Source of the DNA: a virus | DNA length: 61,219 nt | Virus record (IMG/VR): IMGVR_UViG_3300017788_000001 | Coordinates: 1-61,219 of that record | Strand: one strand, 5' to 3' | Shown: piece by piece, positions 27,352 to 52,024 of the stretch | Layout: each line of letters starts with the position of its first letter | Position numbering within the stretch: position 1 is the stretch's first letter | Translations under genes and position numbers: made by a program | The notes under the pieces: model-generated | Databases searched by the model: none | The model's input: the letters and a program-made list of their open reading frames with translations, nothing else | Told to the model about the DNA's origin: nothing

Positions 27352-27371
27352 CCAAAGGAAATAACAACCAA

Positions 27372-27473: not shown

Positions 27474-27545
27474 GTTGCAGGCTCGCCTGCTCCTCGTTTT
27501 AACGATTAAACCCAACACATCCACTACACTTCAAGGAACAACATC

Positions 27546-28335: not shown

Positions 28336-28583
28336 GCAAGACCACCAAGTTCATCAAGACCAGCAAGTTCCCCATCACCTTCGACCGCCTGCATCCGGGC
28401 AGTACGTTCATCATCCACGCCGAGCGTAGCCGTGGGTTCAACTTCTCTCGCGACTACACCGTCTACCGCAAGGCCACGGACGCTGAAGGCTTCTACGCCT
28501 ACCCCGCGCACGACAAGACCAAGGCAGCATGCCTCATGCCTTCCGACATGGTGTGGCCGGTGAAGGAACAAAGGAGCAGCTAA
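28332..28583 (+). CDS. Small hypothetical protein
   Basis: An 83-residue basic protein (MSKTTKFIKTSKFPITFDRL) with a compact beta pattern. ATG 28332 overlaps the previous stop and has AAGGA nine bases upstream. Unknown. Confidence 0.6.
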   Translation: MSKTTKFIKTSKFPITFDRLHPGSTFIIHAERSRGFNFSRDYTVYRKATDAEGFYAYPAHDKTKAACLMPSDMVWPVKEQRSS

Positions 28584-29230: not shown

Positions 29231-29242
29231 CGGTTAAACATC

Positions 29243-30965: not shown

Positions 30966-30966
30966 T

Positions 30967-31587
30967 ATGTGCGTAGCAATTGTAATCCCGGCAGGTAAGC
31001 GTATCTCACTTCAGCAGGTACGTGCCTGCCACACATCCAACGATGATGGGTGTGGCCTCGCCTATGTCAAGGGCAAGACGGTCAAGATCATCAAGGGGCT
31101 GTTCGAGCCCGACGAGTTCTACCAGAAGTATCTGGAAGTAGCAGACACGTATGGCGACAAGGCCATGCTCATGCACTTCCGTATCGCTACGATGGGCAGG
31201 GTGGCCGACAGGAACTGCCATCCGTTCTCTATCTGCGGGGGTGCCATGATTCACAACGGCAGTCTGTGGAGCGGACCGCTCACCAACGACAAGTCGGACA
31301 CTGCGGAGTTCGCGGAAATGTTCGGCAAGATGATGAAGGAGAAGTACGTATCCGCATCGCTGGACAAGATCGACAAGGCCGTTAGCTACAACAAGCTGGC
31401 CATGCTATATGGGTCTGGTAGGTACTACATCACCAACAGTAACCAGTGGCATAATATCGACGGCGTATTATTCTCCAACATCAACTGGAAAAGATTCGTC
31501 GACCAGTCTCCTACGCTTACGCAAGCCATGATCGACGAGGCGTGGGACGAGCACTATGCGTGGGGCGGCAGGGGAGGTGCTCACTGA
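30967..31587 (+). CDS. Class II glutamine amidotransferase A
   Basis: A 206-residue Ntn-hydrolase. Cys2 after the initiator Met is the nucleophile (MCVAIVIP), HFRIATMGRVADRNCHPFSI near residue 76 has the conserved Arg and His-Pro-Phe, and MIHNGSLW near residue 96 the oxyanion Asn-Gly. It would release ammonia from glutamine. No synthetase domain is attached, so the ammonia acceptor must be another protein, most likely a cluster ligase. Starts one base after the ATP-grasp gene. Confidence 0.88.
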   Translation: MCVAIVIPAGKRISLQQVRACHTSNDDGCGLAYVKGKTVKIIKGLFEPDEFYQKYLEVADTYGDKAMLMHFRIATMGRVADRNCHPFSICGGAMIHNGSLWSGPLTNDKSDTAEFAEMFGKMMKEKYVSASLDKIDKAVSYNKLAMLYGSGRYYITNSNQWHNIDGVLFSNINWKRFVDQSPTLTQAMIDEAWDEHYAWGGRGGAH

Positions 31588-31949
31588 TGAAAGACAACAT
31601 GCACAACTACCGTGTATGCTTTCGCAAGAAAGGTGTCAACAAGGAAGTTGCCATGAGCATAGGCGTCGATGATCCGCAGCGTCTGGAAAAGATCGTCATG
31701 GACGTTGCGGGGGTCAAGTCGCTCGACGAGCTGGATCAGTTCGAGAGCCACCTCATCAAAAGCGACGGTACGACAGAGATCACGCAGCATGTCAAGGAAA
31801 AGCCCGTACCCTCTTCTATCATTACTACTCTACCGTCTCGTCCCGGCGATCTGTTCCACGAAAGCAACAAGAACAAACTTCCATCACCGATGGGAGTTCT
31901 CACCCGTTTCTTCAAGACAGCACCTGCGCAGGTAAAAGCATATGCCTAA
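31587..31949 (+). CDS. Hypothetical protein in the ligase cluster
   Basis: A 120-residue protein (MKDNMHNYRVCFRKKGVNKE) from ATG 31587, overlapping the previous stop (TGATG). Compact alpha/beta start, then a disordered Pro/Ser linker and a basic end (VLTRFFKTAPAQVKAYA). It overlaps the next gene by eight bases. Might be the substrate or a carrier of the modification system, but nothing in the sequence proves it. Confidence 0.6.
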   Translation: MKDNMHNYRVCFRKKGVNKEVAMSIGVDDPQRLEKIVMDVAGVKSLDELDQFESHLIKSDGTTEITQHVKEKPVPSSIITTLPSRPGDLFHESNKNKLPSPMGVLTRFFKTAPAQVKAYA

Positions 31950-32583
31950 TCTGGCTCAATCCCTAGGCTCCTCTTATTTCTCCGAGAGAATGAGTGGGGT
32001 CTTGTTAGTACGTGATGGTCGCATCCTGAGCATCACGTCCTACCACACCCGTGACAATTCCATCGAATGCCATGTCGTCGCCTCTCCCGATCACTCGGGC
32101 GAAGGTGAGTCTGTCCGCATCGACGCAGACCTCATCAATTCATATGACGACGTGAGTACGCCTGCCATGGGCTACGTGCGTGTAGGCGATCATCTATGGC
32201 GTGCTACACGAAACAGTTCGGGCCGCGCCGCTGGCGGATTCCTTCAGAGCGGCGTGCGCTGGGAACCGTCACAGCTCACATACCTCATGCAGCTCAGCGG
32301 TGCGGGTGTGTCAAACGCGCCTCCGGCTAGAGATGGGTTGATGTCCCTCTACTTCCCGGCGCACAACACGTTGTCGGAGTGGAGCGCTATGGTTGAGGGA
32401 GAGCTGTCCGGTCTCGTCTTGTCCAAGGACATCATCATCGAACCTACGGTGCGTAACGACCGTGACGAGTACGATGTGTTCGTGAAGGGCATCAACATCG
32501 GAGCCCTTAACCCGGACATGAAGATTAACCGTTATACCCCCAAAGAGAACCGTGACACCATCAAGGAGATTCTTGCGTCATGA
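31942..32583 (+). CDS. Hypothetical protein in the ligase cluster
   Basis: A 213-residue soluble protein (MPNLAQSLGSSYFSERMSGV), beta-rich in the first half. No motif is recognised. Overlaps genes on both sides by 4-8 bases, so it belongs to the same translational unit as amidoligase B and the amidotransferases. Confidence 0.65.
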   Translation: MPNLAQSLGSSYFSERMSGVLLVRDGRILSITSYHTRDNSIECHVVASPDHSGEGESVRIDADLINSYDDVSTPAMGYVRVGDHLWRATRNSSGRAAGGFLQSGVRWEPSQLTYLMQLSGAGVSNAPPARDGLMSLYFPAHNTLSEWSAMVEGELSGLVLSKDIIIEPTVRNDRDEYDVFVKGINIGALNPDMKINRYTPKENRDTIKEILAS

Positions 32584-33656
32584 GTAAGAAGCCTGTACAT
32601 ATGTACTGCGGTGGCCGCAGGATGCCGCGTTTAAGTACGGTGTCCGGTATGTGGCCTGACAGCAGCCTGTTCATCGGACTTGAGATCGAGGCAGAGAACC
32701 TGCGATACTCAAATCGTTCGCGGACAAGCGACGACGACTATAACACGCTTGCTGAAGGTGGCTGGTGTGTCGACAATGACGGCTCATTGCGCGACGACGG
32801 TCGTGAGTTCAAGTTCGCCGGCCCTCTCTGTGGTATGGACATCACCACAGCGCTGGACGCGTTCTTCAACGTGGTGTCGTTCACTCCGTGTCACCGCGCA
32901 GGCATTCACATCCACGTGGACTGGACGACGGTCGATGACGCGGACAGTCTGGCCACACTGATGGCTATCGCCTACGGTCTGGAGCCCGCGCTGTTCAGCA
33001 TCGCCGGCGAGGGGCGTAAGGAATCTTCATTCTGCCGCCCTCTGCAGGACATCGACCCAGAAAAACTGGCAGGCGCAGTTCGTTCTGGCTCATTCGAGTG
33101 GATGCACAACAATCTATTGCCGGGTATCGGGCGCTACTATGGCGTCAATCTCGCGTCTATTGCCAAACACGGTACGGTAGAGTTCCGTCACTTCCCTTCC
33201 TTGTGCGACAGACAGAAGATCGAAACGTGGATTAAGCTTGTGATGCTATTCCGCATCGCAGCCACCAATCCCTCACTGACTCCTGTGAAGGTGTGTGAGA
33301 TGATGTCTACTCCGGCAGGTATCCATGAGTTCTGTCGTGCCTACTTCGGGTTCCATGACCTGCACACACTGCTGCTGGACAACATGGACATCGGTGCTGT
33401 GGCTCAGCGCATGAAGCTGATGCACGGTTTAATTCGTGTCAGACCTGTCGCAAAGGCTACCGTCACCCGCTCTCATGCAGACAAGCTCAGCGTTTCTGCC
33501 CGTCGTTTCATCGACAAGAAATACCCACAACTACGTCAGCAGCGAGCGCGCGCTGCGGAACTGGTAAAGGAACTGGTCAATCCGAACGTGCATGAGTTCC
33601 AGAGATTCCAAGAAGATATAATGGCACGAGTGACTTCCGGCGTGGAGACGATCTAA
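32580..33656 (+). CDS. Amidoligase-family enzyme B
   Basis: A 358-residue amidoligase. FIGLEIEAENLRY near residue 31 is the GxExE strand; DGSLRDDGREFKFAGPL near residue 66 the second acidic strand; AGIHIHVDWT near residue 103 the HxH strand; and HGTVEFRHFPSL near residue 196 the final EFR motif. These are the glutamine-synthetase-fold active-site elements, more complete than in amidoligase A. A C-terminal helical part (from about 290) is extra. It overlaps the second amidotransferase gene by one base, implying shared stoichiometry. Confidence 0.85.
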   Translation: MSKKPVHMYCGGRRMPRLSTVSGMWPDSSLFIGLEIEAENLRYSNRSRTSDDDYNTLAEGGWCVDNDGSLRDDGREFKFAGPLCGMDITTALDAFFNVVSFTPCHRAGIHIHVDWTTVDDADSLATLMAIAYGLEPALFSIAGEGRKESSFCRPLQDIDPEKLAGAVRSGSFEWMHNNLLPGIGRYYGVNLASIAKHGTVEFRHFPSLCDRQKIETWIKLVMLFRIAATNPSLTPVKVCEMMSTPAGIHEFCRAYFGFHDLHTLLLDNMDIGAVAQRMKLMHGLIRVRPVAKATVTRSHADKLSVSARRFIDKKYPQLRQQRARAAELVKELVNPNVHEFQRFQEDIMARVTSGVETI

Positions 33657-34987
33657 TGTGCGGTATCATCGGTTTCATCAACGCCATGCCTCTATCCGGC
33701 ACCACTGGCGAGCGTCATGTCAGCTATCTCACCAAGGCAGATGACGTGATGACCAACGGTGTCGTGGCGTGTAGCGTGCGTGGTATGGACAGCACTGGCG
33801 TGTTTCAAGTGAACGGTAAGGGCAAGGTATTCGTCCACAAGCTTCCCGTGAACGCTTCCATGTTCATTCAGGATAAGGTGTCGAAGCAGTTCCTGAAGGA
33901 CACTATGACCTCCCCAATCACCGTGTTCCACACGAGAGCAGCGACTGAGGGCCGAGTGAACCTGAATAACGCCCACCCATTCACTGCGCTGGATTCCAAG
34001 AACAGGCTGCTGGTGGGCGTGCATAATGGCACACTGTCCGGGTGGAAATCTGCCAAGGATTCCGGCCGCTTCGAGGTGGATTCTGAGTGGGCCATGAACA
34101 GGCTCGCTCAAGATCCGTTCGATGCATTCGAGGATTTCCGTGGAGCATGGTCTTTCGTCTATTGGAAGGAAGAGCAGCCGAGCGTGCTGTATTTCGCTCG
34201 CAACAAAGAGCGCCCTATGTGGATGCTGTTCACCAAGAACCGCAAGCACGCGATCTTTGGCAGCGAGCCGGGCATGCTGAGCTGGATTGCCCAGCGCGAG
34301 AACATCGACGTGGAAGACACTGTGTATGAACTTCCGGTTGACCATGCCGTGATTGTGGATGTACACGCAGACACGCTGGAAATCAAGCACGCATTCAACA
34401 GTCAACTGCCTGCCCCTAAAACGGTGTACGTTCCTACAGGCAGTTACAGCTCGACGACCATCTATCGTGACTCGCGTAAAGACACACTCAGCGCCACAAT
34501 GGCCAAGATTCTTAGCGAAGCTGCCGAGGCGTTTCGTAAGGGCATCAATACTACTGCTGCTCCGACCGCTGTTCAGCAGCCTGCTGCGGAAATTCCGTTC
34601 GAGGCTGGCGAGATCGCGCCCCTGACTCCAGACATGTTCGACAACGGAGTCGCCACCGACTCCGAGAAGAAGATGGCCGAGCAGGAGGGACTGTATGGAC
34701 AGGTGGTGGCGTTCACTCCTACTGATGCTCGCAAGAACTCCGTGTCCGGTACGATCACCGTGCTACGCAACGAGGGTGAACTTGCAGAGGCTGATGCATT
34801 CCTACGACACGGGCAGGAGGACCTGCCGCTAGAGGCTGTAGTGGAACAGTTCGCGTGGGTAGCTATCGCCGGTATGTACACTGTCAAGGACGTCCTGATC
34901 TATGTACTCGCTCCGCTCAATGAGATGGGCGAGGACACGATTGCCGACGAGGTAGCGTCGTACGTCAGCGATGATCTCCCGCGATGA
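33656..34987 (+). CDS. Class II glutamine amidotransferase B, extended
   Basis: A 443-residue protein with an N-terminal Ntn-type glutaminase domain (about 1-245): MCGIIGFINAM with Cys2, FHTRAATEGRVNLNNAHPFT near residue 93, GVHNGTLSGW near residue 121 and GSEPGML near residue 202, as in asparagine synthetase or GFAT. The remaining 200 residues lack synthetase motifs and are acidic, possibly a partner-binding region. Starts on the last base of the amidoligase B stop. Confidence 0.88.
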   Translation: MCGIIGFINAMPLSGTTGERHVSYLTKADDVMTNGVVACSVRGMDSTGVFQVNGKGKVFVHKLPVNASMFIQDKVSKQFLKDTMTSPITVFHTRAATEGRVNLNNAHPFTALDSKNRLLVGVHNGTLSGWKSAKDSGRFEVDSEWAMNRLAQDPFDAFEDFRGAWSFVYWKEEQPSVLYFARNKERPMWMLFTKNRKHAIFGSEPGMLSWIAQRENIDVEDTVYELPVDHAVIVDVHADTLEIKHAFNSQLPAPKTVYVPTGSYSSTTIYRDSRKDTLSATMAKILSEAAEAFRKGINTTAAPTAVQQPAAEIPFEAGEIAPLTPDMFDNGVATDSEKKMAEQEGLYGQVVAFTPTDARKNSVSGTITVLRNEGELAEADAFLRHGQEDLPLEAVVEQFAWVAIAGMYTVKDVLIYVLAPLNEMGEDTIADEVASYVSDDLPR

Positions 34988-35784
34988 GCGTCGCTGACTC
35001 AATCTCCCTTTCCTATTCGTACTTGCGTGAAGGGGAGTCCATCAATAGTCAGCTGTGCCCCGCTTGCGGGGGTGGGCACAGCAAGGAGAAATCGCTCACA
35101 GTCAGCCGTAGAAAGAGCAGGCTGGTGTGGCGCTGCTGGAGGGATGGGTGTCAGTCCGTAGGTATGTGCAACGACGGCGGTAGTTTAATCGTTAAACACG
35201 TCACCAAGCAGACTAAGTGGCTCAACTACAGGCTGCGTAAAATTCCGGAGGATCGATGCGAGCTGCTGCAGAACAAGGTATGTAACCGTCTGCTAGACGA
35301 TTGTCTGTGGACCGACGATCTCGGAGGCAGGTATGCATTTCCTGTGTACGATGCGTCTGGTAGTCTGAAAGGCAGAGTGCTGCGGTCATACGACAAAGAC
35401 AGTGCGCACACTAAAGCTTTGATAGACGTAGGTGATTACACGGGCTGCGCGTGGTCCGTGAACGGCGAGCATCCTGACATCGTGATGGTTGTAGAAGACA
35501 TCCCGTCAGCAGCAAGATGCGCCACGGAGCCCGGCGTAACGGGCTGTGCGTTGATGGGAACACACATCAGTGACGGTAAGGCGGAGGACATCAAGGACTC
35601 CAAGGCTCGCAGGTATTACATCTGCCTTGATCCGGGAGCTTTGAGCAGCGCGGTCAGGCAGACTGTGATGCTGCGTAACTCCCTTCCTCTAACTGTCATC
35701 CCTCTGTCGAAAGACATTAAAGATATGTCGCCCGAAGAGTTCGAAGCTCTGATGGCTAGCTTGAAGGAACACAAAGATGATTAG
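34984..35784 (+). CDS. DNA primase (zinc finger and TOPRIM-like)
   Basis: A 266-residue primase of the T7 gp4 N-terminal type. The zinc-binding domain shows LCPACGGGHSKEKSL and WRCWRDGCQSVG (four Cys; about residues 22-61). The TOPRIM-like core has IVMVVEDIPSAARCA near residue 162 with its Glu, and YYICLDPGAL near residue 210. In that last motif the usual DxD reads DPG, so the second Asp is absent. It is separate from the helicase gene, two genes on. Includes a TTAATCGTTAA palindrome (35185). It overlaps the amidotransferase gene by four bases. Confidence 0.82.
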   Translation: MSVADSISLSYSYLREGESINSQLCPACGGGHSKEKSLTVSRRKSRLVWRCWRDGCQSVGMCNDGGSLIVKHVTKQTKWLNYRLRKIPEDRCELLQNKVCNRLLDDCLWTDDLGGRYAFPVYDASGSLKGRVLRSYDKDSAHTKALIDVGDYTGCAWSVNGEHPDIVMVVEDIPSAARCATEPGVTGCALMGTHISDGKAEDIKDSKARRYYICLDPGALSSAVRQTVMLRNSLPLTVIPLSKDIKDMSPEEFEALMASLKEHKDD

Positions 35785-36439
35785 ATTCACGGTGGTTGAC
35801 AGACTGGTGCGCCTAGCGATGGCCGCCCTGTCACCGAGAGAGTGCGTGTACATGATGTACATTCTCGGGATCAGGAATGGCATACATCCGGGAGGCGCTT
35901 ATCTAGTAGGTGGTAACGAGATAGAAATTGAGAATGACCTGCGTACTAGAGACGCCGCGATGGGTGTACAGGAAGGCGTGTTCGAACTGCCTGACAGTGA
36001 GCGTCAAGTACAGGCTCCTCGTGGTAGGGGAGACGTAATGGGGCTTCTCAACACCGGCGCTGTTGGTACGATTATCTGTTTAGGCGTCCCGCATGAAGAC
36101 AGAGCACATGTGCGATGGACAAATGAATATGGGCCTTTATACCGAGATGCTACAGCTGATAATAGCAGGGGACAGACAAACGATCCTTATGAACAACCTG
36201 TAGTGCAGGAAGTCACGGGGTCTAGCACAGTATTCACAGCTCCTACACCGCAAGACGTGTGGATGGAGGAAGATGCACACCTGCATCTGGCCGAGCTGGA
36301 TGCGCGTAGAGAAGTGATTCAGGGCAGAACGCGCATTGTAGCTGTGGACGTAGAAGCGCCCGGTGCGAACATGTCTACAGAGCAGGTGAACGTGGCCTAT
36401 AGAGTGCTTGACACAGACTGTGACAACAGGAGACGTTAA
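35777..36439 (+). CDS. Hypothetical protein between primase and helicase
   Basis: A 220-residue acidic protein, not recognised. The first 50 residues are basic and helical (MIRFTVVDRLVRLAMAALSP); the remainder is beta-rich and acidic. It overlaps primase by eight bases and ends on the start base of helicase, so it may be a replication accessory, for example a helicase loader, by position only. Confidence 0.6.
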   Translation: MIRFTVVDRLVRLAMAALSPRECVYMMYILGIRNGIHPGGAYLVGGNEIEIENDLRTRDAAMGVQEGVFELPDSERQVQAPRGRGDVMGLLNTGAVGTIICLGVPHEDRAHVRWTNEYGPLYRDATADNSRGQTNDPYEQPVVQEVTGSSTVFTAPTPQDVWMEEDAHLHLAELDARREVIQGRTRIVAVDVEAPGANMSTEQVNVAYRVLDTDCDNRRR

Positions 36440-37650
36440 TGGAGAAAGTGCTGCTCAGCTCCGCACTGAATAGCCGTGAGGCGTTCTCGATATTCGCCAA
36501 GCACCTTGACCCCAAGGTAAAGAGTCGCGAATATCAGATTGTCATGCGGGCTATCAGCGACTATTACGCACGGGACGGTGACTGCACCAAAGTGGACCCT
36601 GCTGTACTGACAGAGCAGGTGATGGCTACGCTGCAGAATCCGAAGCACAAGGAGCGATTCGCGTCGCTCCTTGCCGAAGTGATTGCGCTAGACAGCTCAC
36701 CACCCAACGTCATCGAGCTGGTACTTGATGCCAAGCGTAACGAGCTGGCCGATCGCGTGGCCGTAGCACTAGCCAATAGGGACAAGGACGCAGACGAGCT
36801 AATCGACGAGTACAGGGAACTGCAGCGCGTGTCGTCTCTGGACGACATGATGTTCGAGGACGTTGTGTTCTTAGACTCCTCCAACATCGACGAAATTCTT
36901 AGCGAGGTGGTTAGCCCTGTCAATTACATGAAGCTCTACCCGCTGTCGGTCAACTCACGCGTCGATCAGAGACTGGCACCGGGCCATCACATCCTCACCT
37001 ACGGCCTGCCCGAGATGGGCAAGACTGCCCTTAACGTGACGTTCTCTGCGGGCTTCTGCTCGCAGGGCAAGAAGGTGATCTATTTCATCAACGAGGATAA
37101 GAACGAAGACATCTACACGCGTCACATGTGCTGTCTGTCAGGCATGTCCTACGACGCCATCCGTGCTAACCCGCAGAAAGCCAAGCAACTGGCGATGGAC
37201 GCGGGTCTTGAGAACCTCAAGGTGGTGGGCATATCGCCGGGTAACTTAACGATTATTGAACGCGTCATCGAGCTTGAGGAGCCCGACGCAGTATTCATCG
37301 ACCAGCTCATGAACCTGAACGAGAAGGGCGACGGGCTCACACAAGTGATGGGCCGAGGCTCGCGCGGAGCGCGTAAGCTTGTGAAGAAGTACGGCATCTT
37401 GGGTGTCAGTACAGCGCAGGCTGCGGACAGTGCGTCAGGCAAGGCAGTGCTGGATATCGGCGACGTTTACATGTCTAACATCGAAGTTCCCGCACAGTTC
37501 GATGTCATGATTGGAATCGGTGGTACGCCGGATCAACTCGCTACAGGACGGAGAGTCCTGTCCTTTGCGAAGAACAAGACGACAGGCGATCATAACCCTG
37601 TCGTCGTTAAGCTTCACCCGAGCATCAGTCGTTACACGGATGATGCGTAA
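36439..37650 (+). CDS. Replicative DNA helicase (DnaB/RecA-type)
   Basis: A 403-residue hexameric helicase. Walker A is GLPEMGKTALNV near residues 189-200, a form seen in phage DnaB-like proteins; NEDKNEDIYTRH near residue 218 is the expected catalytic Glu region; Walker B is AVFIDQLMNL near residue 285; and STAQAADSAS near residue 324 is the H3 sensor strand. It unwinds DNA at the fork with the separate primase. It starts on the stop of the gene before it (TAATG) and ends this operon. Confidence 0.88.
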   Translation: MEKVLLSSALNSREAFSIFAKHLDPKVKSREYQIVMRAISDYYARDGDCTKVDPAVLTEQVMATLQNPKHKERFASLLAEVIALDSSPPNVIELVLDAKRNELADRVAVALANRDKDADELIDEYRELQRVSSLDDMMFEDVVFLDSSNIDEILSEVVSPVNYMKLYPLSVNSRVDQRLAPGHHILTYGLPEMGKTALNVTFSAGFCSQGKKVIYFINEDKNEDIYTRHMCCLSGMSYDAIRANPQKAKQLAMDAGLENLKVVGISPGNLTIIERVIELEEPDAVFIDQLMNLNEKGDGLTQVMGRGSRGARKLVKKYGILGVSTAQAADSASGKAVLDIGDVYMSNIEVPAQFDVMIGIGGTPDQLATGRRVLSFAKNKTTGDHNPVVVKLHPSISRYTDDA

Positions 37651-43831: not shown

Positions 43832-44044
43832 GTGAGCGTCGGGCTCATGGTGGGGGCCGGTCTAGTAGGACTGGCCCTATTAGTGGCTTACGTGTGGGGG
43901 CGTATTGTGGGCAGTAGAAAAGATGTCTATCACGACAGAGAGTTCAAAGAAGGGCTGGACGATCGTCATGTCTCGCCTCGCGCGCATCTTGCCGCTATTA
44001 GAGAAGCAGAGCGTATTTTAGGGAGGCAGCGTGACGACAGCTAA
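43832..44044 (+). CDS. Small membrane-anchored protein
   Basis: A 70-residue protein from GTG 43832 with an N-terminal membrane helix (LMVGAGLVGLALLVAYVWGR) and a charged cytoplasmic tail. Overlaps the next gene by 14 bases. Unknown. Confidence 0.6.
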   Translation: MSVGLMVGAGLVGLALLVAYVWGRIVGSRKDVYHDREFKEGLDDRHVSPRAHLAAIREAERILGRQRDDS

Positions 44045-44315
44045 CGACATCTTAGACGAGGCGGCCGGGATGCTCAGTGCCCGAGCCAACGACAGGGACC
44101 AGCCTGACGGTGAGCGCAGCATGGGCAAGATTGTTGAATGCTTCAACATTGCAACAGGGCACAACCTGTCCGAACGTGACGGCTGGCTGTTCATGGTGTT
44201 TCTCAAGGCTGTAAGAGCCGCGACCACACCGCAAGGAAAGCTTGACGACTATGTTGATGGGGCTGCATACTTCGGCCTAGCCGGAGAGGCTGGACACAAA
44301 GGAGGTGACGTATAA
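44031..44315 (+). CDS. DUF6378-like phage protein
   Basis: A 94-residue protein from GTG 44031. It has the conserved pattern RANDRDQPDGERSMGKIVEC, FNIATGHNLSERDGWLFMVF and YVDGAAYFGLAGE, typical of a phage family known as DUF6378. That family is often encoded near nucleotide-metabolism genes, as here before the reductase, but its role is unknown. The AAGGAGGT of the reductase start lies inside its end. Confidence 0.75.
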   Translation: MTTANDILDEAAGMLSARANDRDQPDGERSMGKIVECFNIATGHNLSERDGWLFMVFLKAVRAATTPQGKLDDYVDGAAYFGLAGEAGHKGGDV

Positions 44316-47040
44316 CAACGCCATGGAGCAGTATTGGGCTAATTACGTACAAGCGTACATACGCTAGGACGAACGAAGATGGCGTTGTCGAGGACTGGCC
44401 TGACACAATTGAGCGAGTGATTGCAGCATCTGACACACAGCTGAACGTAGGGTTCACGGATGAAGAGAAGGAAAGACTGCGTGGCTACATGACGCAACTC
44501 AAGGGCACTGTCGCTGGTAGATTCCTGTGGCAGCTGGGCACTAGCACGATTGACAATCTCGGACTTCCTTCCCTGATGAACTGTGCAGCAGTTGTCGTTG
44601 ACTCCCCCGTCCGCCCGTTCACTTGGACATTCGAGAAGTTGATGCTGGGGTGTGGTGTAGGATTCAACATCCAGAGAGAGAACGTAGACAAGCTTCCTCC
44701 TGTATTCTTTGGATTCAAACCGCCCATTCGTCAGGACGACAGCAGTGCAGACTTCATTGTCCCTGATACTCGCGAAGGCTGGGTCAAGCTTCTTGAGCTG
44801 ACGTTGGAGAGTGCGTTCTATGGAAAGCGCCCCACACCGTTCACCTATTCAACACAGTTGATTAGAGGTAAGGGTGTCCCCATCAAAGGATTTGGCGGGG
44901 TGGCTAGTGGACCAGAAGACTTGTGCTGGGGCATCGAGAAGATCAGTCAGATCTTGATGAAGCAGGCCGGTAAGAAGCTGCGTCCCATCCACTGCCTCGA
45001 CATCATGAACATCATCGGAAGTGTCGTGGTGAGTGGTAACGTCAGGCGATCTGCACAAATCGCTATTGGTGATGCCACGGACATCGAGTATCTGAAGTCG
45101 AAGCGCTGGGACTTGGGAAGCATCCCCAACTGGCGTGCGATGTCTAACAACTCTGTTGTCTGCGACGACATCAACACATTGCCCGACGAGTTCTGGGAGG
45201 GGTACAACGGCAAGGGAGAGCCATTCGGTTTGATCAACCTAGAGCTGTCAAGGAAGTGCGGAAGGATTGGAGATGAGCGTTATCCTGATCCTGATGTGAT
45301 AGGCTACAATCCGTTAAAGTTAGCGGCCTTGCTGAGTAATCAGCATTGAATAATCAATCAAAAACGGTGAAAGTCCAGACCGGGCAATGCCGTGCCAATC
45401 CGATATGGAAGGTGTAACGACTATGAGTGATCCTAAAGAACTAATGAAGCGCGTCTCTTTTATGGTAATGGGAGATGGCGGTGTGTACAGAGGCGGCAAA
45501 GAGCACTACTTCGCCATGAACATGCTAAAGAAGAATATCGATTACGTCGAGTATTGCAGAAACACGCTGAGCGAGATCACAAACGCGACAGTGTACGAAC
45601 GCACTATCAGACCAGAAACAGACGGATTCCTGAGACAAGATCAAGTAAGGTTGCAGACTAGTTCTCACCCTTACTTCTCTAGAATCAGAGAGCGTGTGTA
45701 CGTTGACTCCTACAAGGGTCTTGATCCACACGCTATGAAACTTCTTGATCCAGAAGCGCTAGCTATCCTCTATATGTGTGATGGTAGTTGCTACACCAAG
45801 AAGGCAGGAGTCAGTCGCCTTGTAAACAACAGTTATTCAGTGAGTTTAAATATGAAGAGACTGTCATACGGCGACCAATTGTTTCTGAAGCGGGCACTAA
45901 GAGATAAGCTAGGGCTGGAATGGAATGTGAACAAGCACGGTTCTTACTGGTACCTACGTCTGAGGACGAAAGACATACCTGCTTTCTCTGCTATGATCGA
46001 ACCTTTCATCTTTGATAGCTTTAGGTACAAGCTCCCTTGGTTGAGATCCTCGCCAGAGGATCGTGAGATAGTCTGTTCCGTGCAGGAATGTGCGGAGGTT
46101 GACGGAAACGATCAGCCCCTGCTCGCAAGAGCAGAGTAACAATAAAGGTGCAGAACAAAGCCTTAACAACTTCGAAACGTGTTGTCTGGCGGAAGTGTTC
46201 CTTCCGAACAGTGAGTCGTATGACGAACTGCTGGATGTGCTGACACTGTTGTATCGCATCAACAAGCACTCGCTACGCTTGCCTTGTGTCACTGCTCCTG
46301 AGACGGAGAAGATTGTCCACAAGAACATGCGTATGGGCATCGGGATGACTGGCTATCTACAGGCCACGGAAGAACAGCGTGGCTGGCTAGCGCCTGCTTA
46401 CGATCAACTCCGTAGCTTCGATGCCTACTACAGCGATTTGAAAGGCTGGCCGCAGTCGATCAAGTTGACCACGACGAAGCCGTCAGGTACGTTGTCATTG
46501 CTACCGGGTGTCACTCCGGGTGTTCACCCGGGCTACGCTCAGTACATGATCAGGCGCATCAGAATCTCCGCAGACCATCCACTTGTGGAAGTGTGCAGGA
46601 GTCACGGGTATCACGTGGAGTATCAGCGTAAGTTCGATGGAACGGACGATTACAACACTGTAGTGGTGGAGTTCCCGTTCAGCTATCCGGAAGGCACGGT
46701 GCTTGCTAAGGACGTGAGCGCTATTGACCAGCTTGAGTTTGTCAAGAGAATGAACACGGAGTGGAGCGACAATTCAGTCAGCTGCACGGTGTACATCAAG
46801 CCTGACGAGCTTGATGGCATCAAGGCGTATCTCGCCGAGCACTACAAGGACAACTTCAAGTCGCTCAGCTTCCTGCTACATCAAGGTCATGGATTCGACC
46901 AAGCTCCTCTTGAGGAGATCAGCAAAGAACGCTACGATGAACTCGTGGCAAACACTCGCCCCATCGTGAACACAGAGCTTACGACGTATCTGGAGATGGG
47001 TGATGATGAATGTGTGTCGGGCGCATGCCCTGTAAGATAA
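44312..47040 (+). CDS. nrdJ: Class II (B12-dependent) ribonucleotide reductase, intron-split
   Basis: Exon 1 is 44312-45314 and exon 2 is 46148-47040, 631 codons after splicing. It matches the monomeric RTPR type: TPWSSIGLITYKRTYAR at the N terminus, LMNCAAVVVDSPVRPF, LGCGVGFNI, SGNVRRSAQIAIGDA, DPDVIGYNP then CAEQSLNNFETCCLAEVFLP, KPSGTLSLLPGVTPGVHPGY, and C-terminal ECVSGACPVR with the redox Cys pair. It makes dNTPs from NTPs using adenosylcobalamin and needs no oxygen. Homology demands translation upstream of the first GTG (44417); the only start-like site is ATA 44312, six bases after AAGGAGG. The intron falls within the codon for the radical Cys of NPCAEQ. Confidence 0.9.
45315..46147 (+). 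mobile_element. Group I intron in the reductase gene
   Basis: An 833-base insert after CCG-T and before GT-GCA, so splicing restores Pro-Cys-Ala-Glu-Gln. The 5' exon ends in T and the intron in G. The 5' part has GGTGAAAGTCC and AACGACTA, and the 3' part GAGATAGTCTGTTCCG and GCGGAGGTTGACGGAAACG, both shared with the capsid intron. Confidence 0.9.
45423..46139 (+). CDS. LAGLIDADG homing endonuclease in reductase intron
   Basis: A 238-residue protein from ATG 45423; an upstream ATG (45387) lacks a better signal. Two LAGLIDADG-type helices: VSFMVMGDGGVYRGG near residue 9 and LAILYMCDGSCYTKK near residue 112. It would cut the intronless reductase allele. Unlike the capsid intron gene, this frame runs through the conserved 3' core of the intron and stops eight bases before the splice site, so its last 25 residues are constrained by ribozyme sequence. 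Confidence 0.88.
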   Translation: MSDPKELMKRVSFMVMGDGGVYRGGKEHYFAMNMLKKNIDYVEYCRNTLSEITNATVYERTIRPETDGFLRQDQVRLQTSSHPYFSRIRERVYVDSYKGLDPHAMKLLDPEALAILYMCDGSCYTKKAGVSRLVNNSYSVSLNMKRLSYGDQLFLKRALRDKLGLEWNVNKHGSYWYLRLRTKDIPAFSAMIEPFIFDSFRYKLPWLRSSPEDREIVCSVQECAEVDGNDQPLLARAE

Positions 47041-47051
47041 AAGGAACAACT

Positions 47052-47204
47052 ATGCGTTACACTCTGATTAACAAGAACACTGGTAAGATTATGGGCGCTG
47101 GCAAGCTCAACTCCCGAGAGGCTGCTCGCAGCATGAAGCGTCGTCAGAAGAACCCCCTAAACTGGCGTATCATGGACGAGCGTAGCGGTCGCTACGTCCG
47201 CTAA
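47052..47204 (+). CDS. Small basic protein
   Basis: A 50-residue protein (MRYTLINKNTGKIMGAGKLN) with a basic helix (ARSMKRRQKNPLNWRIMDER). AAGGA before ATG 47052, 11 bases after the reductase stop. Unknown. Confidence 0.6.
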   Translation: MRYTLINKNTGKIMGAGKLNSREAARSMKRRQKNPLNWRIMDERSGRYVR

Positions 47205-47214
47205 GGAGAACACA

Positions 47215-47361
47215 ATGTCCGATACTATTGGCTTCTTACGAGCAGCGGCTAGTCACTACAAGTCTGTGATAAAGTCGAAGTGGAACGCTTTGACCAAGAA
47301 AGAGAAGATTACTGCGGCTGTCGGTCTTGGCGCTGTAGTCATGCTGATCGTAATCTTCTAA
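47215..47361 (+). CDS. Small membrane protein
   Basis: A 48-residue protein with a basic, helical N terminus and a C-terminal membrane segment (ITAAVGLGAVVMLIVIF). AAGGAG nine bases upstream. Too short for many gene finders. Unknown. Confidence 0.6.
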   Translation: MSDTIGFLRAAASHYKSVIKSKWNALTKKEKITAAVGLGAVVMLIVIF

Positions 47362-47370
47362 AGAGGTAAA

Positions 47371-47446
47371 GCGGGCATAGTTCAGTTGGTAGAACACAAC
47401 CCTTCCAAGGTTGGTGTCGTCGGTTCGAGTCCGACTGTCCGCTCCA
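47371..47446 (+). tRNA. tRNA-Gly (TCC)
   Basis: Acceptor GCGGGCA/TGTCCGC, anticodon loop CTTCCAA, T arm GTCGG-TTCGAGT-CCGAC and encoded CCA. First of a tRNA cluster. Confidence 0.93.
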
Positions 47447-47450
47447 TTCA

Positions 47451-47538
47451 GGAAGCGTGAGCGAGGGGTTTATGCTAGAGCTTTGCTAAAGCTCCGGCCC
47501 GAAAGGGTCCGTAGGTTCGAATCCTACCGCTTCCGCCA
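47451..47538 (+). tRNA. tRNA-Ser (GCT)
   Basis: Acceptor GGAAGCG/CGCTTCC, anticodon stem GAGCT/AGCTC with loop TTGCTAA, long variable arm around GGCCCGAAAGGGTC, T arm GTAGG-TTCGAAT-CCTAC and encoded CCA. Confidence 0.92.
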
Positions 47539-47541
47539 TAC

Positions 47542-47618
47542 ACAGCGTTAGTTTAATTGGTTAGAACAACAGACTTTCAATCTGTACGATGCGGGTTCGA
47601 CTCCCGTACGCTGTACCA
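47542..47618 (+). tRNA. tRNA-Glu (TTC)
   Basis: Acceptor ACAGCGT/ACGCTGT, anticodon loop CTTTCAA with stem ACAGA/TCTGT, T arm GCGGG-TTCGACT-CCCGT and encoded CCA. Confidence 0.92.
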
Positions 47619-47621
47619 TTA

Positions 47622-47679
47622 TGGGGTAAGAAATTCAAGTGAGCTTGAATTCCTCCGTTCGATTCGGAGCACCCCACCA
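47622..47679 (+). tRNA. D-armless tRNA-like element
   Basis: A 58-base unit in line with the tRNA cluster: acceptor TGGGGT/ACCCCA, a single long hairpin AATTCAAG/CTTGAATT in place of D and anticodon arms, a perfect T arm CTCCG-TTCGATT-CGGAG and encoded CCA. The middle hairpin loop is too short for an anticodon. A degenerate tRNA or a functional tRNA mimic. Confidence 0.6.
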
Positions 47680-47691
47680 ACAGGAAAACAA

Positions 47692-47859
47692 ATGACTGAA
47701 GTCACAATAACCAAGAAGCGTCTCGACGACCTACTTAAGGCGGAGGCAGAGCTAGACGCGCTACACGCTGGCGGTGTAGACAACTGGGAGTGGTATTACG
47801 AGTCCCTTAAGAACGCTGACCTAGCGGAAGACGACGATGAAGACGACGAGGAGGATTGA
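47692..47859 (+). CDS. Small acidic protein
   Basis: A 55-residue protein from ATG 47692 with AGGA upstream. A helical start (KKRLDDLLKAEAELDALHAG) and a tail of almost only Asp and Glu. Could mimic DNA or bind a basic partner; unknown. Confidence 0.6.
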   Translation: MTEVTITKKRLDDLLKAEAELDALHAGGVDNWEWYYESLKNADLAEDDDEDDEED

Positions 47860-48065
47860 TGAAGAAGCTTGCAATTCTAGCCCTAGCTCTTCTGCTGGCG
47901 GCTAATGTTAGCGCAGCCAGCAAGCCGCGAATCACGGGCGGCAATCTACCCCCGATCCCGAGCAAGCCACGTATCACAGGTGGTAATCTCCCGCCTATCC
48001 TAGCAGATTACATCTGCGTTCCGTCAGCGCCTCGTGCTATTCGGCGCTATTGTCAACCGAGGTGA
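47859..48065 (+). CDS. Small secreted repeat protein
   Basis: A 68-residue protein with a clear signal peptide (MKKLAILALALLLAANVSAA) and two copies of KPRITGGNLPPI in the mature part, then Cys residues (YICVPSAP, RRYCQPR). Start overlaps the previous stop (TGATG). The motif TGGNLPP also occurs in the repeat-bearing virion protein at 1924-2904. Periplasmic or virion-associated; role unknown. Confidence 0.65.
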   Translation: MKKLAILALALLLAANVSAASKPRITGGNLPPIPSKPRITGGNLPPILADYICVPSAPRAIRRYCQPR

Positions 48066-48068
48066 TTC

Positions 48069-48386
48069 ATGTGTGTAGTCAGTATGGTGGGCGATCACTT
48101 CAACGACCGCTTTAGAAAAGAGCCTGATTGGCAGAAGTACTTCCCTAGCAGCCCGGTGGCACCTACTCCTAGAGATGGCTGCAGACCTCTACTCCCTATA
48201 GATCGCGAAGAGTTTGACAGACTAAAGAAGCAGGTAGAGGAAATGCACGAGCTGCTCCGCAAGGCTAAGCAGTATGACGAATCCACTAACCAGTCTCATT
48301 GCGAGATGGAAGATAAAGTTGCCCTGCTGAAGCATATAGCCAAACAGTTTGGCGTTGACATGAAGGATGTATTCCCCTATGATTGA
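48069..48386 (+). CDS. Conserved phage hypothetical protein
   Basis: A 105-residue protein with MCVVSMVGDHFNDRF at the start and a coiled-coil segment (EEFDRLKKQVEEMHELLRKA). The CxVSMVGDHF start is common in small phage proteins of unknown function. Overlaps the RNA ligase gene by eight bases. Confidence 0.7.
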   Translation: MCVVSMVGDHFNDRFRKEPDWQKYFPSSPVAPTPRDGCRPLLPIDREEFDRLKKQVEEMHELLRKAKQYDESTNQSHCEMEDKVALLKHIAKQFGVDMKDVFPYD

Positions 48387-48927
48387 TACGGTAGATTTTT
48401 TAGAGTTCCCGAAGATGGCCCGTCTGTCACGCGAGTGCGTGATCACCGAGAAGATTGACGGCACTAACGCACAGGTATATGTCTCCGAAGACGGCGTAGT
48501 GATGGCAGGTAGTCGCAATAGATGGATCACGCCAGAGCAGGACAACTTCGGCTTCGCAAAATGGGTCAAGGATAATGAGGAGGAGCTACGCAAGCTCGGC
48601 CCGGGTCATCACTACGGTGAGTGGTGGGGCGCTGGTATTCAGAGACGTTATGGCCTAGATCACAAGAAGTTCTCCTTGTTCAATGTAGACAGATGGCAGG
48701 AAGACAGGCCTGTGTGTTGTGACGTGGTGCCTGTCCTTTACCGTGGTGTGTTTGATACTGCTGAGGTAGAACGTTGCATAGATAGTCTATGTGCTAATGG
48801 TAGTGTCGCAGCTCCCGGCTTTATGAACCCAGAAGGTGTAGTTGTCTACCACGTCGCCGGTAGAGTCGGTTTCAAAAAGACAATAGAGAGAGACGAAGTT
48901 CCAAAGACCCTTCAGGTGACACAATGA
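48379..48927 (+). CDS. RNA ligase (Rnl2-like nucleotidyltransferase)
   Basis: A 182-residue ligase. Motif I is ITEKIDGTNAQVYV near residue 21, with Lys as the AMP acceptor; motif Ia GSRNRWITP; motif III GEWWGAGI near residue 75; motif IV NPEGVVVY near residue 154; motif V VGFKKT. The C-terminal domain is missing, giving the small nick-sealing type used to repair RNA, for example cleaved tRNAs; the tRNA cluster is just upstream. ATG 48379 is preferred to 48367 because the latter is too close to AAGG. Confidence 0.82.
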   Translation: MIDTVDFLEFPKMARLSRECVITEKIDGTNAQVYVSEDGVVMAGSRNRWITPEQDNFGFAKWVKDNEEELRKLGPGHHYGEWWGAGIQRRYGLDHKKFSLFNVDRWQEDRPVCCDVVPVLYRGVFDTAEVERCIDSLCANGSVAAPGFMNPEGVVVYHVAGRVGFKKTIERDEVPKTLQVTQ

Positions 48928-49079
48928 TTATAACGATCACTGTGCCTAGCAAAGAGCACGACGTAGAGCACGCAGTATCTGTCCCTATCAGCCGTTACGA
49001 AGAGCTGCTACAGGCAGAAGCGCTGCTACGTTCTCTAGATGACTTATGTCCTTCGAGTAATCATGACCGAGAAACCTAA
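48924..49079 (+). CDS. Small hypothetical protein
   Basis: A 51-residue protein from ATG 48924, overlapping the ligase stop (ATGA). Contains ISRYEELLQAEALLRSLDDL, a helical motif common in small phage proteins. Below usual size cut-offs. Confidence 0.5.
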   Translation: MIITITVPSKEHDVEHAVSVPISRYEELLQAEALLRSLDDLCPSSNHDRET

Positions 49080-49230
49080 GTTTAGACGAGGCCCATTGCC
49101 TGATCTGAGCAAGCCGTCGAAGCTACGCAATCCCAAGAAGAAGGCGCAGTTCGCTGGAACGTTCGCAGAAGACAACATCAAGCCTAGGCACAAGCCATAC
49201 AAGAGAAAGAAGGTGGTAACAGATGACTGA
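49063..49230 (+). CDS. Small basic protein
   Basis: A 55-residue, Lys/Pro-rich protein from ATG 49063 (MTEKPKFRRGPLPDLSKPSK), probably disordered and nucleic-acid binding. Overlaps both neighbours. Confidence 0.5.
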   Translation: MTEKPKFRRGPLPDLSKPSKLRNPKKKAQFAGTFAEDNIKPRHKPYKRKKVVTDD

Positions 49231-49456
49231 TCCGTTTTTCAATCCAGACAGCTACGGCACTATCACAGCGTTCGCTAGAAACATGACCACAGCTGAGCTG
49301 ATCGATCGTGCGAAGGACAAGTACTGGCTGGCGTCTCTCGACAAGAACGACCTGCGAGAGCTGGTGAGCGAGCTGGCGGACAGAGCCGAAGGGCTGGAAG
49401 AGTACGTCAATAGACAGCACGACAGGCCCGATGAATACTCACTCATTGACGACTAA
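49223..49456 (+). CDS. Small acidic helical protein
   Basis: A 77-residue acidic protein (MTDPFFNPDSYGTITAFARN) with two helices. Overlaps the exonuclease gene by 26 bases. Unknown. Confidence 0.6.
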   Translation: MTDPFFNPDSYGTITAFARNMTTAELIDRAKDKYWLASLDKNDLRELVSELADRAEGLEEYVNRQHDRPDEYSLIDD

Positions 49457-50222
49457 TCTACAGCCGTTAGTTGATGGCGACGTGCTGCGCTACAGGTGCG
49501 GCTTTGCTGCCGATTCCCAGAGAAGGAAGCAGCTGAAAGAGCAGCACCCCGACCTGAGTGAGGGCGACATAGAACAGCTGCTCTCGGACGAAGACTACTT
49601 AGGCTACGCCCTGAGTAACGTCAAGGAGTCCCTCACATCCACGCAGGAGATGTTCACCCTTCCGCCCCTACAGCTTTACCTGTCAGGCTCTGGCAACTTC
49701 CGAGAGCAAGTGGCTACCATCCTCCCGTATAAGGGTAATCGCACAGCGCGTAAGCCCAAGTATTACGAAGAGATAGGGCAGTACATGAAGGACGTATGGC
49801 GCGCTATTGTCGTGGAAGGGCAGGAAGCCGATGACGCTTTGGGCATCGAGCAGTACGGACGTACAGATAACAGCACTGTGATTGTGTCCATCGACAAAGA
49901 CTTGGACATGATTCCCGGCTGGCATTACAATCTCATGCGTAAGGAACTGTACGAGGTGAGTGAACGTGATGCTGATATCCAGCTGTTCCGTCAGATGCTC
50001 ATAGGAGACAGGACGGATAACATCCCGGGTATCGAGCAAGTAGGGGATGTTAGAGCAGAGAAGCTGCTGGCTTCCGTGGACTATGACGTAGATGCTGTGC
50101 GCAGCCTTGTCAAGGCCAAGTACCAAGAGCAGTATGCCAACGATTGGGAACGTGCATACAGGGAAGTGGGGACGTTGCTGTGGATCAGGCGTGAGCCTGA
50201 GCAGGAGTGCGTGCTACTGTGA
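49431..50222 (+). CDS. 5'-3' exonuclease, FEN/T7 gp6-like
   Basis: A 263-residue structure-specific nuclease. PLVDGDVLRYRCGF near residue 12 gives the first Asp pair; VEGQEADDALGIEQ near residue 128 the second acidic cluster; VIVSIDKDLDMIPG near residue 147 the third; and LIGDRTDNIPGIEQVGDVRA near residue 191 the helix-three-turn-helix region with further Asp. It removes RNA primers and, in T7-like phages, degrades host DNA. Complements the polymerase, which has no such domain. Confidence 0.88.
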   Translation: MNTHSLTTNLQPLVDGDVLRYRCGFAADSQRRKQLKEQHPDLSEGDIEQLLSDEDYLGYALSNVKESLTSTQEMFTLPPLQLYLSGSGNFREQVATILPYKGNRTARKPKYYEEIGQYMKDVWRAIVVEGQEADDALGIEQYGRTDNSTVIVSIDKDLDMIPGWHYNLMRKELYEVSERDADIQLFRQMLIGDRTDNIPGIEQVGDVRAEKLLASVDYDVDAVRSLVKAKYQEQYANDWERAYREVGTLLWIRREPEQECVLL

Positions 50223-50419
50223 ACAAGGAGCGCTGGGAATCGCTGATGGAACTCGGCGGTCCTTTGACAAAGGAAGAGAAAGAGCAAGGCTGGCATTTCT
50301 GTCCAAGCCTTGACTACGCAGTGGTTGGTCCCGATCACATGTCTTGGGACTTCTGCGAGTGTTACCACATAAAGGATAGAGTTAATGACCGTAAAGAAAG
50401 GAACAAGAGTGAAGGTTAA
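50219..50419 (+). CDS. Small hypothetical protein
   Basis: A 66-residue protein from GTG 50219, which overlaps the exonuclease stop (GTGA). Contains Cys residues (WHFCPSLDY, FCECYHI). Unknown; overlaps the next gene by 35 bases. Confidence 0.5.
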   Translation: MNKERWESLMELGGPLTKEEKEQGWHFCPSLDYAVVGPDHMSWDFCECYHIKDRVNDRKERNKSEG

Positions 50420-50609
50420 CAAGGTGAAGTACGTCAATGTACTTTCAGAGCGCGCTGTCAAATGGTGGCCCGGTCCGTGGAAGGTAATTGAGGTTTTGCC
50501 GGATGATCCGAAGATGCTTGAAGAGAGGCTGACGTTTCTCAGAAACGATGCATTCATGCAGGAACGTGCCCACGAAGTGAGGGTGGATAGGGCGGTGTAT
50601 CGTGGGTAA
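50385..50609 (+). CDS. Small basic beta-barrel-like protein
   Basis: A 74-residue protein (MTVKKGTRVKVNKVKYVNVL) with alternating basic and hydrophobic residues, as in small SH3-like or KOW-type domains. Unknown; overlaps the frameshifted HNH gene by eight bases. Confidence 0.55.
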   Translation: MTVKKGTRVKVNKVKYVNVLSERAVKWWPGPWKVIEVLPDDPKMLEERLTFLRNDAFMQERAHEVRVDRAVYRG

Positions 50610-51029
50610 TAAGACTCCCCCTTTCCGGAGTGGCCAGCATGGAGTAGCGCTAAGTTCTGGTCGTTTGTACGATCAGGACTGAGAGCCAAGTGGACCCGCT
50701 GGCCGCCGAAATACGCAGCACTAGCCGCTGCCCGTAGAGCTAGCAAGAGCAGTAACAAGCGTCTCAAGCACGAGTTTCAATGCAACAAATGTAAGGACTG
50801 GTTTCCACAGAAGAATGTTAGTGTGGATCACATAGTGCCATGCGGCACTTTGAAATCATTTGATGACCTACCAGCCTTTGTCGAGAAGCTATTTGTCGGA
50901 CAAGACAAGCTGCAGGTTCTCTGTCATCCATGCCACCTGATAAAGGGAGCGGAAGACAGGAAGCTAGCGGCAGATAACAACAAAGAGGAATGCAGCCATA
51001 AAACTAAAGAACCTAGAAAACGAAAGTGA
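50602..51029 (+). CDS. HNH endonuclease, apparent -1 frameshift
   Basis: The main frame encodes FPEWPAWSSAKFWSFVRSGL, KWTRWPPKYAALAAARRASK, FQCNKCKDWFPQKNVSVDHI and LQVLCHPCHLIKG: an HNH nuclease with two CxxC pairs and the VDHIVPCG active site. This frame has two stop codons at 50607-50612 and no start before GTG 50823, which is past the conserved N terminus. GTG 50602 in another frame gives MGNKTPP and joins the main frame by -1 slippage, or one extra C, at CCCCC (50617-50621). Either a sequencing error, true mutation or programmed shift. Confidence 0.7.
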
Positions 51030-51261
51030 ACAGGAGTTCACCGCAAAGATTGTGTTCACCAGCAAGGGCGTGTCGCCGATGGTGACGTTCTCTGTAGAGA
51101 CCAGTCACGACGTTGACGACGACGAGGGCCCTGTGAATCTTAGCGATCTCCCGGCGTCCTACCAAACCGTCGACCGGGTGATGGCTATCATCACACAGAT
51201 GGCTGGGCAGAATGCTCCTGAAGACTCGTTCATGGAAATCGCAGAGCGTACACTGAACTAA
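50998..51261 (+). CDS. Hypothetical protein with apparent ATA start
   Basis: An 87-residue acidic protein. The first standard start in frame, GTG 51052, has no ribosome binding site and cuts a continuous strand (EFTAKIVFTSKGVSPMVTFS). ATA 50998 follows AGAGGA by eight bases and gives KLKNLENESEQ before it. Sequence centre is VETSHDVDDDEGPVNLSDLP. Overlaps the HNH gene by 32 bases. Unknown role. Confidence 0.55.
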   Translation: MKLKNLENESEQEFTAKIVFTSKGVSPMVTFSVETSHDVDDDEGPVNLSDLPASYQTVDRVMAIITQMAGQNAPEDSFMEIAERTLN

Positions 51262-51271
51262 GGAGACTGTT

Positions 51272-52024
51272 ATCAAGATCTTGATTCTTGACATAGAAAT
51301 CTCTCCAGTGCTTGCTACGATCTGGGGCCTGTTCAACCAGAACATCGGCATCAATCAGATCACAGGTAACTCAGAGGTGATGTGCTGGGCCGCCAAGTGG
51401 CATGGGAGTGATGACGTGTATTTCTCCTCCATCGAGCTGACTTCCAAGAAGCGCATGCTCAAGGAGATGTACGATCTGATCGAGGAGGCTGACGCAATTG
51501 TCACGTACAATGGCAAGGCTTTCGACCTCAAGATTCTGAACAAGGAGTTTGCTCTGCAGGGATGGGCTGCACCTAGTCCTTACAAGAACATCGACATGCT
51601 CGGAGTCATGAGGAAGCAGTTCAGGTTCACGTCCAACAAGCTGGGCTATGTGGCCGAGCAGCTGAAGCTCGGGAAGAAGCTCAAGCACCAAGGTCATGAG
51701 CTGTGGCTGCACTGCATGAATCCAAAGTCCGAAGAGTACAAGAGCAGCTGGGACATCATGGAGGAGTACAACATTCAGGACGTATTGCTGCTTGAGTCTC
51801 TGTACGACAGACTCCTTGGCTGGATTCACAATCACCCCAACCATTCCACTGAGACAGGTGAGCACGTGTGTCCTAACTGTGGAGGTAGTCACTTGCAGAG
51901 CAGAGGCACATACACAACGGCGTCTCTGAGCTACAGGCGTTATCAGTGCAGGGACTGCGGTAAGTGGTCTCGTTCTCGTCTAGCCGACAAGGACAAGAAG
52001 GGTCGTCAGGTCGTAGGAGTGTAA
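51272..52024 (+). CDS. RNase H-fold 3'-5' exonuclease with zinc ribbon
   Basis: A 250-residue protein. ILILDIEISP at the start has the Asp-x-Glu motif; VTYNGKAFDLKILN near residue 74 the second; YNIQDVLLLESLYDRL near residue 162 the closing Asp. Residues 205-240 are a zinc ribbon (HVCPNCGGSH, YQCRDCGKWS). Polymerase-proofreading or DNA-processing nuclease of the YprB/DnaQ sort. The expected N terminus is MKILILDIE, but the first codon is ATC (51272), six bases after AAGGAG; TTG 51281 would shorten the first strand and is badly spaced. Confidence 0.8.
   Translation: MKILILDIEISPVLATIWGLFNQNIGINQITGNSEVMCWAAKWHGSDDVYFSSIELTSKKRMLKEMYDLIEEADAIVTYNGKAFDLKILNKEFALQGWAAPSPYKNIDMLGVMRKQFRFTSNKLGYVAEQLKLGKKLKHQGHELWLHCMNPKSEEYKSSWDIMEEYNIQDVLLLESLYDRLLGWIHNHPNHSTETGEHVCPNCGGSHLQSRGTYTTASLSYRRYQCRDCGKWSRSRLADKDKKGRQVVGV

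Follow-up and report, generated by a model that had tools for sequence, protein, structure and literature searches.

Bacterial genes that start at a codon differing from AUG in its third position are already known. The gene for initiation factor 3 (IF3), infC, starts at AUU in Escherichia coli and at AUA in Staphylococcus aureus (PMC13009471), and the S. aureus genes ccpN (AUA), citZ (AUA) and cvfC1 (AUU) reach roughly 10–30% of AUG expression behind extended Shine–Dalgarno (SD) sequences (PMC13009471). Such starts are held in check by IF3, which excludes weak third-position pairs (PMC10158994); extra IF3 in E. coli reduces both re-initiation and the use of non-canonical starts (PMC2268962), and the GTC start of Streptomyces sigR is IF3-repressed (PMC5472188). 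Here we examine three genes of an uncultured phage, namely nrdJ (class II ribonucleotide reductase, RNR), a small gene and a DnaQ-like 3′–5′ exonuclease gene, in the complete IMG/VR record IMGVR_UViG_3300017788_000001 (61,219 bases, hereafter the window). Judged from sequence, these genes are very probably translated from AUA, AUA and AUC, respectively, by the host initiator tRNA as formyl-methionine, aided by their SD sequences. They are new members of the AUH (AUA, AUC or AUU) start type. Bacteriophage T4 gene 26 carries an internal AUU start that gives a secondary product, unlike the primary enzyme-gene starts considered here.

The phage genes resemble infC in their third-position near-cognate start, strong SD and expected mispairing of the initiator tRNA at position 3. 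However, infC is an autoregulated cellular gene, whereas the phage AUH genes encode RNR, exonuclease, amidotransferase and other products, with several such starts in one genome. The S. aureus ccpN, citZ and cvfC1 genes likewise place AUH behind an extended SD, but these are cellular genes with one conserved codon, whereas among phage relatives A, C and T are exchanged at the third position and AUH has been gained repeatedly. The sigR GTC start is also non-canonical but lies two positions from AUG, and it was not seen in the phages examined. Recurrent use of AUH at the level of gene families in phages appears to be undescribed in the open-access literature searched.

A sequence-only reading of the window had pointed to these three codons and their SD sequences, and direct reading found them at the positions given: AAGGAGGTGA-CGT-ATA for nrdJ, AGAGGA-N8-ATA for the small gene and TAAGGAG-N6-ATC for the exonuclease. 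The features concerned are as follows.

44031–44315, + strand: upstream open reading frame (ORF) of 94 amino acids with a GTG start, PHROG 474-like; its TAA stop (44313–44315) overlaps the nrdJ ATA in an ATAA junction.
44299–44308, + strand: extended SD of nrdJ, AAGGAGGTGA, 10 nucleotides (nt) complementary to the 3′ end of 16S rRNA.
44312–44314, + strand: ATA start codon of nrdJ, directly followed by TPWSSIGLITYKRTYAR.
44312–45349, + strand: reading frame of nrdJ exon 1, to an in-frame stop within the intron (splice site approximate); PHROG 367, E = 3e-66; Pfam RNR_Alpha at residues 5–77.
46144–47040, + strand: reading frame of nrdJ exon 2 (start approximate); PHROG 367 positions 390–697.
50984–50989, + strand: moderate SD of the small gene, AGAGGA.
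50998–51261, + strand: small gene of 87 codons with its ATA start at 50998–51000.
51259–51265, + strand: SD of the exonuclease gene, TAAGGAG, whose TAA is also the stop codon of the small gene.
51272–51274, + strand: ATC start codon of the exonuclease; relatives have AUH or ATG, GTG or TTG in the same alignment column.
51272–52024, + strand: DnaQ-like 3′–5′ exonuclease gene, 250 codons plus stop; PHROG 403, E = 8e-86; Pfam RNase_H_2.

From the preceding stop to the AUH codon, ATG, GTG and TTG are absent in frame in all three genes. The first canonical codon lies downstream, at +35 codons in nrdJ (GTG 44417), +18 in the small gene (GTG 51052) and +3 in the exonuclease (TTG 51281). Homology places Met1 exactly at the AUH codon in two of the three: TPWSSIGLITYKRTYAR, which the sequence-only reading had held to be needed directly after the nrdJ ATA, is matched there in about 80 relatives, and the starts of exonuclease relatives align to the column of the ATC, as had also been expected. 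The nrdJ start lies at −4 nt and the exonuclease start at +10 nt relative to the upstream stop (coupling range taken as up to about 30 nt), and the small gene begins about 30 nt inside an HNH frame that ends at 51029. All other window genes checked have a usable ATG, GTG or TTG, save the frame-disrupted HNH gene itself (50602–51029). Thus, the AUH starts represent a local trait of three genes rather than an altered code.

The SD of nrdJ is the strongest of all + strand gene starts in the window, at −11.2 kcal/mol for contiguous pairing and −17.3 kcal/mol against the longer anti-SD. That of the exonuclease is also strong (−9.1 kcal/mol). The description of all three SDs as strong therefore stands for these two genes, and the small gene fares less well, as weighed below. 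Because its SD is moderate, the small-gene case leans more on its homologue in locus L002, where ATA follows AAGGAGAAGGA at the matching position.

Among 81 distinct exonuclease sequences, 49 start at ATG, 16 at GTG and 10 at TTG, and the remaining six lack a canonical start near Met1 (−4 to +2 codons). All six have ATA, ATC or ATT exactly at Met1 behind an SD. Whether relatives carry ATG at the same place, a check proposed at the outset, thus has a mixed answer: some have ATG (L002 and L104, for example), GTG or TTG, and others have AUH at the same codon, including ATA in L003 (taaggagaatactATAAAAATATTA) and L162, ATC in L108 (caaggaggtccgctATC) and ATT in L105 and L138. If canonical codons up to four codons downstream are permitted, the window (TTG) and L162 (ATG) exonucleases are reassigned, but these alternatives are the less likely starts, since they lie too far from the SD. 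A seventh AUH exonuclease occurs in GenBank MW202796.1, where ATC stands in taaggagaattaaaATCAAAATTTTA and the annotated coding sequence begins 54 codons too late.

The other families behave similarly. Most of the roughly 80 nrdJ relatives have canonical starts, and ATC is found in L047 and L048 (taaggagatcaaactATC) as well as in L098, where it overlaps the upstream gene; an RNR-like gene in L097 starts at ATT. In L003, a gene for an HslV-like protein opens with ATC-ACT-ACG behind AAAGGAGG, so that ATC directly precedes Thr-Thr, at a position taken by ATG or TTG in relatives. The second-position Thr is common to the window, L002, L003 and L104; the window homologue matches PHROG 1040 (E = 3e-19), and neither the window nor the L003 protein matches Pfam. 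Orthologues can also share AUH starts, as with the exonuclease (ATC in the window, ATA in L003) and the small gene (ATA in both the window and L002). Both enzymes are under purifying selection, with ratios of non-synonymous to synonymous substitution (dN/dS) of about 0.13–0.16 for nrdJ (pairs 0.34/2.15 and 0.30/2.30) and about 0.13–0.17 for the exonuclease (pairs 0.24/1.81 and 0.29/1.69).

Class II glutamine amidotransferases offer a sharper yardstick, because the catalytic Cys of these enzymes must directly follow Met1. A scan of IMG/VR for AGGAG-N5–9-codon-Cys-Gly-Ile-x-Gly, with a long open frame required, yielded 68 genes with ATG (61 distinct), 11 with ATH (nine distinct, eight ATT and one ATC) and five with TTG or GTG (four distinct), whereas CTG and the 12 control codons A[ACG]N gave no real genes. 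In phage amidotransferases behind an AGGAG SD, AUH is thus commoner than GTG and TTG together. Family membership is borne out by Pfam GATase_6 in L118 and L342, with ICGIV at the AUH start. In amidotransferases and HslV-type peptidases, the catalytic Cys1 or Thr1 is exposed only by removal of methionine, and this need favours the reading of AUH as methionine over isoleucine.

In a genome set of 84,980 bacterial and archaeal species, the AUH pattern occurs in 38 stretches, about three of which were judged to be full-length genes with no canonical start further upstream, such that the rate of AUH starts in bacterial amidotransferases would be very low. These three, in L226, L230 and L246 (Dyella monticola, an uncultured Clostridium and a Thermoanaerobaculales metagenome-assembled genome), apparently start at ATA or ATC.

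The same family extends AUH use to isolated phages. All seven Kuravirus/Gordonclarkvirinae-type E. coli phages inspected (Paul, PGN6866, Bas91, 1-6af, E20-1, SU10 and SU7) have the amidotransferase start ATTTGTGG with ATT, one codon past an in-frame TAG and with no canonical in-frame codon between, and the marine phage T4S1 has ATT as well. GenBank annotates the ATT for Bas91 and SU10, and a later codon, with loss of the Cys, for Paul, SU7, E20-1, 1-6af and T4S1.

Two observations belong beside these genes. L342 (360–401) and other Gordonclarkvirinae-type phages have a possible in-frame nine-codon leader, MKGFTLQVD-stop, one codon before the ATT, and it is possible that this leader couples or regulates the amidotransferase. 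The window itself holds, at 26260–37647, genes for γ-glutamylcyclotransferase-like, S6-glutaminyl-transferase-like, amidoligase and class II amidotransferase proteins, a set resembling the amidoligase/amidotransferase pair of Kuravirus-type phages.

To count starts beyond single families, we used a junction scan and a tiling-filtered census that covered 203 loci (2.1 Mb) and took its anchors from homologues whose starts are reliable; an unfiltered tally of the codons that follow each ORF's strongest SD proved too noisy, and the census before filtering, which consisted mostly of antisense and internal anchors, was not used. Genes with an SD and without a canonical start have ATT (four), ATA (three), ATC (two) or another codon (three) at the aligned position. 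Of these last three, one is a copy of the window nrdJ case with a misplaced anchor, and another has ATA at the next codon. Candidate AUH starts followed by ATG within one or two codons (16148, 1924, 2958 and 53224, and G005 L113:1558) were left out of the counts. A tree of 72 exonuclease proteins has six changes between AUH and NUG, with the window and L103 proteins interleaved among relatives that start at ATG and with L138 as sister to a gene that does so too, and a tree of 73 amidotransferases has ten start-class changes for 11 AUH rows. These many changes indicate that AUH has been gained repeatedly, much as GTG and TTG are, and that it neither descends from a single odd ancestor nor is confined to one host.

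We propose that the CAU anticodon of the host initiator tRNA would pair with A1 and U2 of AUH, with the third-position mismatch tolerated, and would insert formyl-methionine. A stronger-than-usual SD would offset the weak codon, and in most cases the stop codon of the upstream gene would deliver the ribosome and add further compensation; in most AUH cases, the upstream stop lies within −17 to +43 nt of the start. The expected outcome would be a low, IF3-sensitive output of enzymes that are needed in small amounts. We infer the decoding as formyl-methionine, the coupling, the low output and the IF3 sensitivity. Comparative evidence supports well the sequence-only reading's proposal of real AUA and AUC initiation.

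In favour of this reading, AUH genes have stronger SDs than canonically started ones in the exonuclease family (median −9.3 kcal/mol, versus −4.3 kcal/mol where the start is ATG; P = 0.003 when all canonical starts are taken together) and, as the same trend, in the nrdJ family (P = 0.02). Several points weigh against it. The SD comparison includes only five AUH genes in the one family and four in the other; one entry (‘ATC’ in L094) has no SD and is probably mis-anchored, and the L098 entry lies four codons past the likely ATC at 4157. The SD of the small gene is just moderate (−6.0 kcal/mol). In the exonuclease, TTG 51281 stands three codons past the ATC, 15 nt from the SD, and could give a shorter protein. 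Finally, the SU10 amidotransferase has been detected by mass spectrometry with nine peptides, and its published mass of 63.8 kDa (PMC4281155) fits a protein truncated at codon 114 better than the full-length product of 76 kDa. The peptides show that the frame is translated and do not fix the N terminus.

The TTG bears on the broader alternative that all three genes yield shorter proteins from the downstream canonical codons GTG 44417, GTG 51052 and TTG 51281. These codons do exist. The sequence-only reading had described them as badly placed or costly in conserved sequence; in the exonuclease, TTG 51281 would cost three residues only. We nevertheless regard this alternative as unlikely, because downstream starts would leave a strong SD unused and the loss elsewhere is severe. 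A start at GTG 44417 would deprive nrdJ of 35 residues, among them the region of the ITYKRTYAR motif that about 80 relatives conserve, the next canonical codon in the exonucleases of L003, L105, L108, L138 and L336 lies 15–35 codons on and would remove the DxE motif, and in the amidotransferases it would cost the catalytic Cys.

A similarly small chance attaches to the idea that infection alters initiation, through an anti-IF3 activity or a changed ribosome, such that AUH starts work in infected cells only. The seemingly far greater frequency of AUH amidotransferases in phages than in bacteria (in the species set above, about three candidates are full-length) would fit such a change. However, AUA and AUU starts function in uninfected S. 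aureus at roughly 10–30% of AUG (PMC13009471), and AUH is used by phages of several unrelated groups. The suggestion that tolerance is gained during infection also finds no footing in the records of the window phage and five relatives, in which no IF3 homologue was found, or in the E. coli phages, which use AUU in a host with ordinary IF3. No ribosome change is needed, given that stronger SDs and the known low level of AUH initiation explain the starts.

It is very improbable that sequencing or assembly error turned ATG into ATA or ATC. The window is a metagenomic contig from one assembly, but AUH stands at the exact start column in many independent assemblies, in contig pairs from separate metagenome records (L047/L048, L208/L217 and L204/L219) and in E. 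coli phages that have been isolated and sequenced repeatedly, and the A[ACG]N control codons yield no real genes.

There is equally little to recommend initiation at AUA with isoleucine by a phage-encoded tRNA(CAT) at 25874–25951. By sequence and fold, this tRNA combines C4–G69 and C5–G68 pairs like those of tRNA-Ile2 with an initiator-like GGG/CCC anticodon stem, but its acceptor stem is fully paired (G1–C72), unlike that of an initiator, and isoleucine at the N terminus would leave Cys1 and Thr1 enzymes unprocessed. We rejected this explanation because lysidine-modified CAU reads AUA only, leaving AUC and AUU unaccounted for, and because no CAT tRNA was found at the other AUH-start phage loci. 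That the genes are decaying pseudogenes with lost starts, as the frame-disrupted look of the adjacent HNH gene might hint, is scarcely credible when the open frames are long, dN/dS is low, SDs are retained and the replacement codon is AUH and no other class.

Initiation at AUH by the host initiator tRNA could have wider reach. We tentatively suggest, at somewhat less than even chances, that tailed phages as a group use AUA, AUC and AUU as a regular start class, ahead of GUG and UUG combined in some early metabolic genes, the reason being an output that is low and IF3-dependent or one that varies with the initiation capacity of the host. If so, many phage genes would be truncated or missed by present gene callers, which commonly allow just ATG, GTG and TTG, such that AUH-started genes lose their first residues. 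GenBank has already lost the exonuclease N terminus in MW202796.1 and the amidotransferase catalytic Cys in Paul, SU7, E20-1 and 1-6af. The natural exchange of A, C and T at start codons behind strong SDs also provides a ready test of position 3 and IF3 in vivo, and the ATT cases are testable in isolated E. coli phages.

Some further observations concern these and neighbouring regions. In two phages (L029, − strand, 1246, and L140, − strand, 284; positions 0-based on the reverse complement), a gene beginning IIDPIT has ATC or ATA, preceded by GAGGAG, at its homologous start. Within nrdJ, positions 45350–46145 of the window form an intron that carries a LAGLIDADG endonuclease and matches no Rfam intron family at gathering score; a second LAGLIDADG gene lies at 8042–8695 (− strand), close to the gene for the major head protein. 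In the HNH gene (50602–51029), the frame from 50613 has no ATG, GTG or TTG before 50823; its natural N terminus, VGNKTPPF, is encoded in a different frame that opens at GTG 50602, with the join across CCCCCTTTC. The break reflects a one-base indel or else a −1 frameshift at CCCTTTC. After a Gly-Ser-Glu tRNA array, an element of about 60 nt at 47622–47680, called by neither ARAGORN nor Rfam, is tRNA-like in having an acceptor stem, a T arm and CCA. A single 8-bp hairpin replaces its D and anticodon arms, and the predicted fold has an energy of −20.6 kcal/mol.

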